From contig JAQYVX010000002.1 in NCBI GenBank assembly GCA_030145305.1, positions 310,001 through 374,000 of the forward strand: DNA of 64,000 nucleotides, given 5' to 3'. The position numbers and the translations under genes are program-made. How positions within the stretch are numbered: position 1 is the first letter of the stretch; every line of letters starts with the position of its first letter. Shown one piece after another: positions 39,891 to 43,622 of the stretch. A model generated the notes under the pieces. That model did no database searches. It was not told the origin of the DNA and saw nothing but the letters and a program-made list of their open reading frames with translations. This stretch comes from Halarcobacter sp. GTDB lineage: Bacteria; Campylobacterota; Campylobacteria; Campylobacterales; Arcobacteraceae.

Positions 39891-42080
39891 ATGCTTCAAT
39901 TTATAATGAAAAAGATAAGCAATAAAATTATTCTTGCTTTATTTATTTTAATGACTTCGTCAAGTTTAGTTGTAACTTATTTTATTACTAACCAAGTAGA
40001 AGAAGATGCAATTTTCGCATCAAAGAAAAATCTAGAAATGATTAACGCAGCAATGTTTCAAAGTCTTAGAACAGCAATGAATACAGGAGACCCTGCTCAA
40101 ATAGCAAAAGCAGAAAAGGAAGCCAGTGAAATTGAGGGTGTAAAAAAATTAACTATTGCAAAAAGTAAGCCTTTAATTGAGATGTACTCTCCTGGTGAAA
40201 AATTTACAGAAAATAAAGCTATATTAAAATCTTTCAAAGATAAACAAAGTCAAATAATTGAAAGCACAGAAGATGGTCATAGTTTAAGAATGATAAAACC
40301 TATGGTTGCAACAAAAGATTGTTTAATGTGTCATGCAAACCAAGCTGAAGGTGATATTATTGGAGTAATGGACTTAACATTTTCACTTGATGAATCTGAT
40401 TTAAGAATTAGTGATTTAATAATAGATATTTTAATTATGTCTACACTTTTTGGCTGGATTACTATTGGTCTTATTTTCTTAATTGTAAAAAGAGCTACAA
40501 ACCCTATTTCAAAATTAAAAGAAGGTTTCCAAAACTTACTTCATTCTAATGATACAAGTATTAATTTAGAAATCGAATCAAAAGATGAGATTGGTGAAGT
40601 TGCACAACTATTTAATTCATACATGGGAAAAGTTCGTGAGGGCTTAAAAGAAGATGAAAAAGTTATTGAAGAGGCAAATGATATTTTAGAAAAAACAAGT
40701 AATGGATTCTTTGTTTATCAAGTTAACTCAACTGCATCTAACCCATATGTAGAAGATCTAAAAAACAAATTAAATACAATGATTTTAAGTACAAAAAATA
40801 CCCTAGATAAAATAAATATAACTTTAAGAAACTATTCTGAATCAAAGTTTGATTATAGAATAGATGACAAAGGTATATACGGAGATTTAGCTTCATTAAC
40901 AGCAGGAATTAAACTAGTAGGAAATAATACTTCTGAAATTTTAGCAATGATTATGAATACTGGTGATTCATTAAATAGAAATACACATACCTTATCAACT
41001 GCATCAAATAATTTATCAAAATCATCAAATCAACAAGCAGCTTCACTAGAAGAAACAGCAGCTGCACTTGAAGAAATAACAGCAAATATTCAAGGTAATA
41101 CACAAGCTTCAATACAAATGGCAAACTTAGCTGATAATGTTACAAAATCTGCCCAAAATGGACAAAACCTTGCAAATAGAACTGCTGGGGCAATGGATGA
41201 TATAAATAAACAAGTTACTTCTATTACAGAAGCAATTGAAGTAATAGACCAAATTGCTTTCCAAACTAATATCCTATCTTTAAATGCGGCTGTTGAAGCT
41301 GCAACAGCAGGAGAAGCAGGAAAAGGTTTTGCCGTTGTTGCACAAGAAGTTAGAAATCTTGCAAGTAGATCAGCAGAAGCTGCAAAAGAAATAAAAGAAA
41401 TTGTTCAAAAAGCTACTAGTAAAGCAAATGATGGTAAAAAGATTTCAGATGAAATGATTGCAGGTTATGATGAATTAAATACAAATATTAAATCTACAAT
41501 TGAAAAAATTGAATATGTAGCAACTGCTTCTAAAGAGCAAGAAAAGGGTATTACTCAAATTAATGATGCTGTAACTATGTTAGATAAAGCAACACAAGAA
41601 AATGCCCATGTAGCAGAAGAAATATCAAGTATGTCAACTCAAATTGCAGATATGTCAAACTCTTTAGTAACAGCAGCATCACGAGCTAGCTTCTTAGAAG
41701 ATGCAAGAGAAGAAGTATGTAACGTAGATTTAGTTTATGATACAGCAAATTTAAAAGTTGATGTGTTAAAACTAAAAGATAGTGTTTACTCTCAACTTGG
41801 TAAATATCAAACTTGGAAAGTTACAAAAGATCAATCTTTAGAAGATTGGATTACAAATTATACTAATACGAATCCAAATGTTAATATGGGTTCAATAGAT
41901 AACTTAAGAGATTTAAGTGCTAGTCTTAATATAAAACTACAAAACTTAGTTGATTCAAATGCTAATAAAAAAGAGAATGTAATATTAAATGAAAAAGCGA
42001 AAGAAGTAGAGATAGAAACTCTTAGAATATTTGGAACACTAAATCAGCTTAAAAAAGATGCTTGTAAAATAAGCAAATAA
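39891..42080 (+). CDS. Methyl-accepting chemotaxis protein with a c-type haem sensor domain
   Basis: 729 residues. After TM1 (about 13-30) a periplasmic DUF3365/Tll0287-like domain (35-170) contains C144-L-M-C-H148, a CXXCH haem-binding motif followed by FSLDE near TM2 (about 175-205). HAMP follows ([17 protein letters not shown]), then a second HAMP-like stretch, and the signalling hairpin with the MCP tip ([41 protein letters not shown]). The last 120 residues (about 610-729) form a helical extension after the signalling domain that I do not recognise. It is probably a receptor for redox state, oxygen or NO. A CheZ-like protein is encoded just downstream on the other strand. Confidence 0.88.
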
Positions 42081-42088
42081 AAAGAAAT

Positions 42089-42110
42089 AAAAAGGATTAA
42101 TTTCCTTTTT
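42089..42110. terminator. Bidirectional terminator between MCP and the CheZ-like gene
   Basis: AAAAAGGA (42089-42096), loop TTAATT, TCCTTTTT (42103-42110). Convergent genes end on either side and each strand has a T-rich 3' side. Confidence 0.7.
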
Positions 42111-42113
42111 ATT

Positions 42114-42485
42114 TTACTTCCCCATACTTTGAATTAAAGCCTCTAGTTCATCATTAGAAACCATATCTTCAGAGTCATTTTTTCCTATATTTTTAGCACT
42201 TGGTGCTATATTATAATCGCTTATATCAATATTGTTTGTTTGAGATACATAATTAACAATTTTTTCTATTTTTTGTCTATGTAAATCTTGATGTTGTAAC
42301 ATACCAAAAGAGGTAGAAACTAATTTGCTAACTTTTTCTATTTCGTGTGAATGAATACTAGAATTAATTATTATAGAATTAATTGATTCTAAATTATCAT
42401 AAATTGCGATTGAGTTTGATTCAGACTCTTTTATCACGTCACAAAGCTCTTTTATTAATTCGTCATAAGTCATATATTTCTCCAA
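42114..42485 (-). CDS. Very small CheZ-like / chemotaxis phosphatase-like protein
   Basis: 123 residues. Residues 5-80 are two amphipathic helices. MLQHQDLHRQKIEKIVNYV carries D-x3-Q (D-L-H-R-Q), the spacing of the CheZ catalytic Asp and Gln in QDLTGQxIxxV. The last 14 residues (SNDELEALIQSMGK) resemble the C-terminal CheY-binding helix of CheZ and the FliM N-terminal EIDALL peptide. CheZ is normally over 200 residues, so this would be a minimal version. It is downstream of a chemoreceptor gene on the opposite strand. Assignment is inference from motif spacing only; an unrelated flagellar or chemotaxis protein is possible. Confidence 0.55.
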   Translation of the reverse strand: MEKYMTYDELIKELCDVIKESESNSIAIYDNLESINSIIINSSIHSHEIEKVSKLVSTSFGMLQHQDLHRQKIEKIVNYVSQTNNIDISDYNIAPSAKNIGKNDSEDMVSNDELEALIQSMGK

Positions 42486-42557: not shown

Positions 42558-43622
42558 CTAATGAATAACTTCTGCAACAAATTCTGTAGCATAAGAACCT
42601 TTTGGCAGTGAAAATTGTATTTCCATCCAGTTTTTATCTTCTTTATAGTTTGTTTGTACCTCATCAGGGAATACCCAAGAAAATCTTCTAGCACCATCTT
42701 CTGGTATTTTTATATCATATTCTTTTTCTATTTCATAAGCTAAATCAACTGCAATTTTCACTCTTTTTCCACATAAAATTCCTGTTGCTACTCTATCTTT
42801 TTTAGAAAATTTCTCAGCTTCTGCTTCTAAATCTTCAACATGAAATATTTTTCCAAAAGGATAATGACTCATCAAATCACCAGGTAATAATTTAAAAGGG
42901 TGTTCTTGTTTCTTCATATTCTTCACAATATCTAAAGGTAAATTTAGTTTTTCAAAAATCTCTTTTGGAGCAAAAGCATCAACTAATTTTGATACTTCTA
43001 TTCTTTTTGATAACCAAGAATTAAAAAGATGACTTTGATAAGCATTTATATACATTTGCTTTAGTTTTCTATTCTTTTCTTTTAGTTCACCTTTTATAAT
43101 AGCTTCACCCTTCTCATAATTATTCCCCTCGATTCCAAATCTTTGAAAACCGAAATAATTTGGCATACCAAAATTAACAATTCGTGAAATTGCTTCTTCA
43201 ATTTTTCTTGCATCCATTGGAGTTACTCTTTTTAATCTAATGAAAAATTTATTTCCTTTTAAATGCCCTATTTTAATCTTATTGTTATGTCTATTAGTTT
43301 CAAGAATTTTGATATTTGCGTGATTAAATTTATTTAATTTTTCTTCACAAGACTTAGGAATAGATATTTGTTGTACTGTCATTGCATTTTTATCTTTTAA
43401 ACCTGCATATCCTATATCTCTATTTTTACATCCCAGTTGTTCTGCGAATATAGAAAGAGCATCCCATGTTGTCAAATCTTTTTTTCTAAATTTAACAATG
43501 ATATGTTCCCCTTCCCCACTAAATTCATATAAGGGAATTTCTGTCACAACAAAATCATCTTTGTTTTGTTTAAATAGAACATCAATTTTTGAGTGATTTA
43601 AGTATCTTTGTAATTGTTTCAA
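42558..43622 (-). CDS. truD: tRNA pseudouridine synthase TruD
   Basis: 354 residues. It modifies U13 of tRNA-Glu. The catalytic Asp is in GYAGLKDKNAMTVQ (about residue 83); FFIRLKRV, MPNYFGFQRFGIEG and MYINAYQSHLFNSWLS also match. The TRUD insertion domain is short, as in other members of this phylum. It follows thiL after 12 bp. Confidence 0.93.
   Translation of the reverse strand: MKQLQRYLNHSKIDVLFKQNKDDFVVTEIPLYEFSGEGEHIIVKFRKKDLTTWDALSIFAEQLGCKNRDIGYAGLKDKNAMTVQQISIPKSCEEKLNKFNHANIKILETNRHNNKIKIGHLKGNKFFIRLKRVTPMDARKIEEAISRIVNFGMPNYFGFQRFGIEGNNYEKGEAIIKGELKEKNRKLKQMYINAYQSHLFNSWLSKRIEVSKLVDAFAPKEIFEKLNLPLDIVKNMKKQEHPFKLLPGDLMSHYPFGKIFHVEDLEAEAEKFSKKDRVATGILCGKRVKIAVDLAYEIEKEYDIKIPEDGARRFSWVFPDEVQTNYKEDKNWMEIQFSLPKGSYATEFVAEVIH

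Follow-up and report, generated by a model that had tools for sequence, protein, structure and literature searches.

Sequence analysis of a shortened second CheZ conserved among the Arcobacteraceae

Introduction

Can a protein of about 120 residues, encoded by an unnamed gene that converges on a chemoreceptor gene, be a CheZ, and if so, which parts of CheZ has it given up? The question arose in a stretch of 64,000 nucleotides of a Halarcobacter genome (the window, hereafter), in which the initial annotation had proposed a minimal, one-hairpin CheZ next to a haem chemoreceptor. Comparison of sequences and predicted structures indicates that the small gene is a shortened second CheZ, real and conserved, which is additional to a long CheZ of 334 amino acids in the window genome.

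The gene and its product

The gene had been drawn as a frame of 123 codons (42114-42485, reverse strand) containing QDLHRQ and ending in SNDELEALIQSMGK. The frame and both peptides were confirmed, but the TTG start at 42485 was four codons off. This TTG touches the GGAG ribosome-binding site, and most orthologues open at an ATG equivalent to 42473, with N-termini of the form M-T/K-Y-E/D-E/D-L. Since the GGAG precedes this ATG and most orthologues start there, the ATG was taken as the start, giving a product of 119 amino acids (Table 1). Convergence with the chemoreceptor gene was observed as claimed. Between the two genes lies an inverted repeat, which was absent from the list of a promoter and terminator scan of the window, a scan that was otherwise uninformative.

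Table 1. Features of the short cheZ locus in the window (positions in the 64,000-nucleotide stretch)
Feature	Position	Strand	Remarks
Short cheZ gene	42114..42473	-	ATG start, 119 codons and stop; start from orthologues and Shine-Dalgarno
Shine-Dalgarno-like GGAG before the ATG	42480..42483	-	Read directly
Helix 1 of predicted hairpin, residues 3-37	42363..42467	-	AlphaFold2 model; residues 6-38 align with residues 70-102 of CheZ L033
Helix 2 of predicted hairpin, residues 43-79, bearing the active site	42237..42347	-	AlphaFold2 model; aligned with L033 from about residue 150
Catalytic motif D63-L-H-R-Q67	42273..42287	-	Invariant in 27/27; motif in 55/55 open homologues
Linker, residues 80-106	42156..42236	-	Partly of low confidence; pLDDT under 50 at 94-103
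C-terminal acidic amphipathic peptide SNDELEALIQSMGK	42117..42158	-	Predicted helix 107-117; aligns with the E. coli C-terminus via sister-family CheZ
Inverted repeat AAAAAGGA/TCCTTTTT	42089..42110	.	8 bp, perfect, terminator-like; between convergent genes; read directly
Chemoreceptor, 729 aa, with HAMP and MCP signalling domain	39891..42080	+	One CxxCH in sensor; relative beside short gene in 44/55 loci
truD, upstream neighbour	42558..43622	-	In stretch at 49/55 loci: 45 same strand, 4 opposite

Homology to the CheZ family

Across Pfam and NCBIfam, the sole significant match of the window protein was NF041271 (Phos_CheZ, 'protein phosphatase CheZ'), which the 119-residue form matched with 42.2 bits (E 6.3e-11) and which all 27 aligned short orthologues matched at E<=1e-3. 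It is to be noted that the short proteins score far below the curated cut-off of this model (350 bits), a value that none of 60 genomes passes, full-length CheZ included. HHalign comparison of the 27 short proteins with 17 CheZ proteins of sister families (218-266 amino acids) gave E 6e-25 and a probability of 99.6 over 112 columns, with 33% identity. In this alignment residues 6-38 of the short protein pair with residues 70-102, and residues 42-119 with residues 150-236, of the full-length sister-family member L033; the pairing is interrupted by a large gap where the hairpin tip would be and by a smaller one where helix 2 ends. The profile alignment and the NF041271 matches thus bear out the CheZ homology that had been proposed.

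The sister-family proteins of the Campylobacterales have in common with the short CheZ a helix-1 block, the active site QDxHRQKIERV, the linker motif SAxHIxGD and the tail DDxEALI; the CheZ proteins of H. pylori and C. jejuni are described as prototypes of this type in the portion of PMC9321776 drawn upon here. The Pfam CheZ family PF04344 was matched neither by the window protein nor, at 0.01, by any of the 27 short members; among longer relatives, a protein of intermediate length (L028) reached E 5e-4 and L033 reached E 3e-4, both under the curated cut-off. A PDB sequence search with the short profile did not retrieve E. coli CheZ (1kmi), and HHalign of the same profile against E. coli CheZ gave only a spurious alignment of 17 columns. 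For the sister-family CheZ, 1kmi_Z was the top match (E 0.067), and a second comparison gave E 0.071, both values being marginal. In this register the D-x3-Q and the C-terminal peptide of E. coli CheZ line up with those of the sister-family proteins; no direct similarity of E. coli CheZ to the short protein was detectable.

Other searches returned little. Two of the 27 short members matched AnkX, an unrelated NCBIfam model (best E 1.2e-5), which was taken as chance helical similarity. No Spo0E family was among the Pfam matches of the window protein up to E 10, in a search in which HMMER filters drop weak matches, and nothing in PHROGs was significant (best E 0.014). In viral contigs, 126 stretches fitted a pattern and none was a relative. 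A scan of named contig records found a single relative, from an Arcobacter sp. MAG (L032, 66% identity), and a plasmid search with a sister-family CheZ found one Campylobacter record.

Active site, C-terminal peptide and selection

The D-x3-Q of QDLHRQ had been put forward as the CheZ catalytic pair, and it was lost in none of 55 open short homologues. BLAST or profile searches had already supplied these 55 loci, at each of which a script then located the gene through the motif without a failure. The D and Q columns were invariant in the 27 aligned orthologues, and likewise in a set of 30 short, 17 sister-family and 13 long CheZ proteins, every one of which had both residues. By itself D-x3-Q is a weak signature: it occurs in 10 of the 33 ATG-to-stop frames of 80-200 amino acids in the window, and in 6295 of 20000 shuffles of the short protein, one of which had QDxxRQ. 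A chance D-x3-Q can be ruled out because the two columns are conserved. Besides D63 and Q67, the residues M1, L10, V13, E18, Q60, R66, E70, A93 and K94 were invariant in all 27. The register of D63 and Q67 corresponds to D143 and Q147 of E. coli CheZ by way of the sister family, a step that is marginal (E about 0.07). In the CheZ mechanism, as set out in the text excerpted from PMC3035606, the glutamine orients a water molecule and the acidic residue contacts a receiver lysine.

The C-terminal end had likewise been likened to a CheY-binding peptide. Inspection by eye of the 55 homologues agrees with this, an acidic peptide being seen in each and one like that of full-length CheZ in nearly all, and a helix is predicted there. 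The peptide is most divergent in G018, G021, G028, G029, G090 and G091. The gene is under selection, with dN/dS of 0.07-0.20 in the four closest pairs and a median of 0.29 over 329 pairs with dS<2; one of the 14 closest pairs reaches 1.02.

Predicted structure and the missing segments

AlphaFold monomer models, made with two sequences in the alignment, predicted two long helices, a loose linker and a short C-terminal helix. The model of the window protein had a modest pLDDT of 72.1 (boundaries in Table 1), and that of its relative L032, with helices at 3-37, 42-79 and 107-118, a modest 67.5. Fold searches with these models gave only generic helical hairpins, with nothing under E 0.001 in one of them, and 1kmi was not among the best 50 rows of either list. 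In E. coli CheZ a hairpin of residues 35-168 is followed by a linker and a C-terminal helix, according to the sections of PMC7750401 on which we draw, and the modelled short CheZ would have the same order of elements. These sections also bear on the earlier remark that a one-hairpin CheZ is unusual: the reduction of the hairpin is indeed unusual, but its being single is not, as every CheZ monomer gives one hairpin to the bundle (PMC7750401). The oddity is therefore the shortened hairpin.

Relative to a CheZ of about 240 residues, the short protein is missing the N-terminal peptide MTQEELDALMAG and a Pro-rich linker. It also lacks some 45 residues around the tip of the hairpin and a few more where helix 2 ends. 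In L033, nothing in the short protein corresponds to about 69 residues at the N-terminus or to residues 103-147, and the canonical full-length architecture is thus not found. The main missing block is 103-147; because its centre, near 125, is close to the turn Phe-Pro at 127-128, the losses from the two arms of the hairpin appear roughly equal.

Seven of the 55 genomes (G016, G023, G032, G095, G112, G125 and G126) have intermediate forms of 152-171 amino acids, in which an N-terminal MTQ[ED]ELD is kept and L033 residues 104-144 (109-144 in G095) are absent. NF041271 is matched in pieces by the G016 intermediate (1-31, 75-102 and 168-238) and by that of G023 (73-101 and 149-239), and that of G032 likewise matches in pieces that skip the tip. 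In a tree of 119 columns, a branch with support 100/98 set the 30 short and intermediate proteins apart, 13 long Arcobacter CheZ proteins were split off with 100/99, and the 17 sister-family proteins with 93/69; the tree is unrooted, and at its start the M-T-x-E of long and of short proteins is aligned in a few columns that may not be homologous. A topology in which the intermediates group with the sister-family CheZ and not with the short ones was not rejected (AU p 0.104). Given the unrooted tree, the few columns and this AU value, loss of the tip before the N-terminus is the simplest reading, although unproven. The short CheZ would then descend from the CheZ type of about 240 residues of the Campylobacterales, first losing the tip-centred block and afterwards, in most lineages, the N-terminal peptide and linker.

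A different N-terminus was seen in genus g7, in which three genomes (G097:C47, G021:C15 and G101:C40; loci L114, L106 and L115) have a short CheZ of 129-134 amino acids, with neither truD nor the receptor within the stretch of 5-7.5 kb that was read.

Distribution and co-occurrence with CheA

Of the 104 genomes surveyed in the family, the window genome included, at least 90 have a short-type match, and in 3 of these 90 the copy is broken, split or partial: G100 has a partial copy, and in G119 and G123 the copy is divided in two. Since the G119 pieces sit at contig ends, that copy may be split by the assembly only. These tallies were made by eye from the matches listed, and the genomes, some of them incomplete, are related and therefore not independent. 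Among the matches listed, six genomes had the long CheZ only (G019, G035, G036, G098 and the incomplete G076 and G106), and 8 of the 104 had neither CheZ, all 8 lacking CheA. Across 298 genomes of the order, matches listed outside the family were all in frames of at least 177 amino acids, which suggests that the short form is confined to the family.

Of the 104 genomes, 49 were examined for CheA. An intact short gene was present in 32 of these, all 32 with CheA, and none of the 11 genomes without CheA had an intact short copy among the matches listed. Of the 14 genomes lacking the short gene among the matches listed, 9 lack CheA. The CheA-less genomes include G106, G100 (partial copy) and G123 (broken copy); G119 has CheA. 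Five genomes with CheA had no short gene among the matches listed (G019, G035, G036, G098 and G076, the last 54% complete), so the gene is evidently dispensable. In the CheA-less G123 (L122), the short cheZ and the adjacent haem receptor are both decayed, as would be expected if both serve chemotaxis.

Proposed function

From its sequence, we consider the short CheZ very probably an active CheY-P phosphatase. It would be a cytosolic helical-hairpin protein that most likely forms dimers, giving a short bundle of four helices. Its C-terminal peptide would catch phosphorylated CheY, and Gln67 would be placed at the phospho-aspartate and Asp63 against the CheY lysine, speeding hydrolysis and ending the signal. 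It would act alongside the long CheZ of the flagellar locus and not in its place. The comparisons themselves establish the homology, the conserved catalytic pair, the tail, the shortening, the co-distribution with CheA and the selection; the order of the losses, the dimer, the phosphatase activity and the CheY that is served are what we infer from them.

The loss of matching lengths from the two arms, with later removal of the N-terminal peptide, might further mean that the docking parts of CheZ were stripped and its chemistry kept. Two CheZ proteins would then divide the labour, the long one docked at the motor or array and the short one diffusing freely and acting on a different CheY; we offer this as a possible but doubtful extension.

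The short CheZ could help to tell the indispensable parts of CheZ from the rest. In the consulted part of PMC7750401, residues 70-133 of E. coli CheZ, tip included, are reported to suffice for polar localisation, and by the register above this is probably about the part that the short CheZ is missing. It thus amounts to a natural deletion probing whether the bundle tip, which localises the protein in E. coli, is needed for catalysis, and the 152-171-residue forms provide an intermediate step. A further question on which it touches is the separation of signals in cells with several CheY proteins.

Genomic neighbourhood and alternative readings

The placement of the gene beside a haem chemoreceptor, as first described, holds at 44 of the 55 loci; at the other 11 there was no such receptor in the stretch. 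The stretches are about 2 to 10 kb long, and the contig itself stops at the end of some of them, so that absences of neighbours are upper bounds. The receptor is on the opposite strand at 38 loci and on the same strand at 6. CxxCH was present in all 19 neighbouring receptors with a translated sensor part, and the window receptor had sub-threshold matches to two sensor families. At the six same-strand loci, which come from two genera (G026, G028 and G102-G105), the haem MCP overlaps the short gene or ends within about 25 nucleotides of it, the distance in G102 being taken from a BLAST match with an unclear start codon. Just upstream of the MCP in G026, G102 and G104 is a stand-alone receiver gene, which suggests one possible partner of the short CheZ.

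This arrangement, together with the 44 adjoining MCPs, favours the reading that the short protein is a phosphatase dedicated to the response regulator of the haem chemoreceptor and not to the flagellar motor. We regard this as unlikely, since the two genes are on opposite strands at 38 of the 55 loci and the parts do not always occur together. The window genome yielded no close relative of the receiver of G104, its best match (59 bits) being in a frame of 234 amino acids, and neither did G028, G103 and G105. Moreover, in G030, G018 and G095 the short gene is present although a search for close relatives of the haem sensor found none; the reverse holds for G035 and G098, which have the sensor with the short gene absent among the matches listed. 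An obligate tie to the haem receptor is not supported by these five genomes, and the tie is mainly positional.

The second alternative is a CheZ-derived regulator that is no longer mainly a phosphatase, but binds CheY or forms unequal dimers with the long CheZ and so tunes it. A long CheZ coexists in many genomes of the family, the predicted CheY-binding peptide is retained, and shortening of the hairpin might weaken an active bundle. Against these stands the invariance of D63 and Q67, along with Q60, R66 and E70, in 27 of 27 orthologues; the catalytic pair would be superfluous in a protein that only binds, and this regulator is quite improbable. That the gene encodes an unrelated helical hairpin with a chance D-x3-Q, for which the frequency of the motif in shuffles and the generic structural matches might speak, is hardly conceivable and is refuted by the profile homology, which spans both helices and the tail, and by the NF041271 matches of all 27 members.

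Several further features of the neighbourhood were observed. In two genera there is an apparent three-gene unit of receiver, haem chemoreceptor and short CheZ (L109, 3468-6404; L112, 3239-6191; G026:C30, 110772-113709). Past its signalling domain, the window chemoreceptor continues for about 120 residues (41690-42080) in a C-terminal extension, also seen in the neighbouring receptors of relatives, and no Pfam match above cut-off covers it; its LGKY stretch may be akin to the CZB domain, although the zinc ligands are missing. In G033 (L105, 1513-2877) a 454-residue open frame of transposase-like look cuts the 3' end of the receptor gene, and the short cheZ stays open.

Relation to known CheZ proteins

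Because the short protein has no Pfam match and lies far below the NCBI CheZ cut-off, this second CheZ, which most genomes of the family carry, is probably still annotated as a hypothetical protein. In searches of open-licence PMC papers, none of the listings showed a description of a short or second CheZ in Arcobacter relatives. CheT of Sinorhizobium meliloti is a small protein. It is described, in the extract of PMC12654446 at hand, as having a DXXXQ motif and a CheZ-like predicted structure and as speeding dephosphorylation of one of two CheYs. The suggestion that a minimal CheZ is new must therefore be narrowed: what is unusual is the shortened hairpin, and a small CheZ-like DXXXQ phosphatase was already known in CheT (PMC12654446, same extract). 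We liken the two by description alone, and CheT differs in being alphaproteobacterial and in binding CheR (same extract). The CheZ of Azorhizobium caulinodans also has a bundle about 25 residues shorter than that of E. coli, with gaps on either side of the turn; in contrast to the short CheZ, it is 236 amino acids long and keeps a long N-terminal helix (PMC7750401, sections as above). For Arcobacter, the cited portion of PMC9321776 gives one CheZ, in the flagellar locus beside CheYz, and in the relevant passage of PMC2147049 A. butzleri is credited with CheC, and CheZ is mentioned solely in connection with other taxa, as their phosphatase.

The long CheZ of the same genomes (292-384 amino acids in the complete ones read) has the domain and the D/Q pair of the short CheZ, but forms a separate clade and has a full hairpin and a long acidic N-terminus. 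In L001 and L108 its gene adjoins a cheY in a flagellar locus. Peptides in this acidic N-terminus resemble what we take to be the FliM CheY-binding motif. Full-length CheZ proteins of the order start with MTQEELDALMAG, and many long Arcobacter CheZ proteins with MSMSQEEIESLMNG followed by a second similar stretch (L001, 1417-2421, which is C72 of the window genome; L033-L049). Both starts presumably resemble the same FliM motif, and with such a FliM-like peptide at its N-terminus, CheZ may be able to bind CheY through a peptide at either end.
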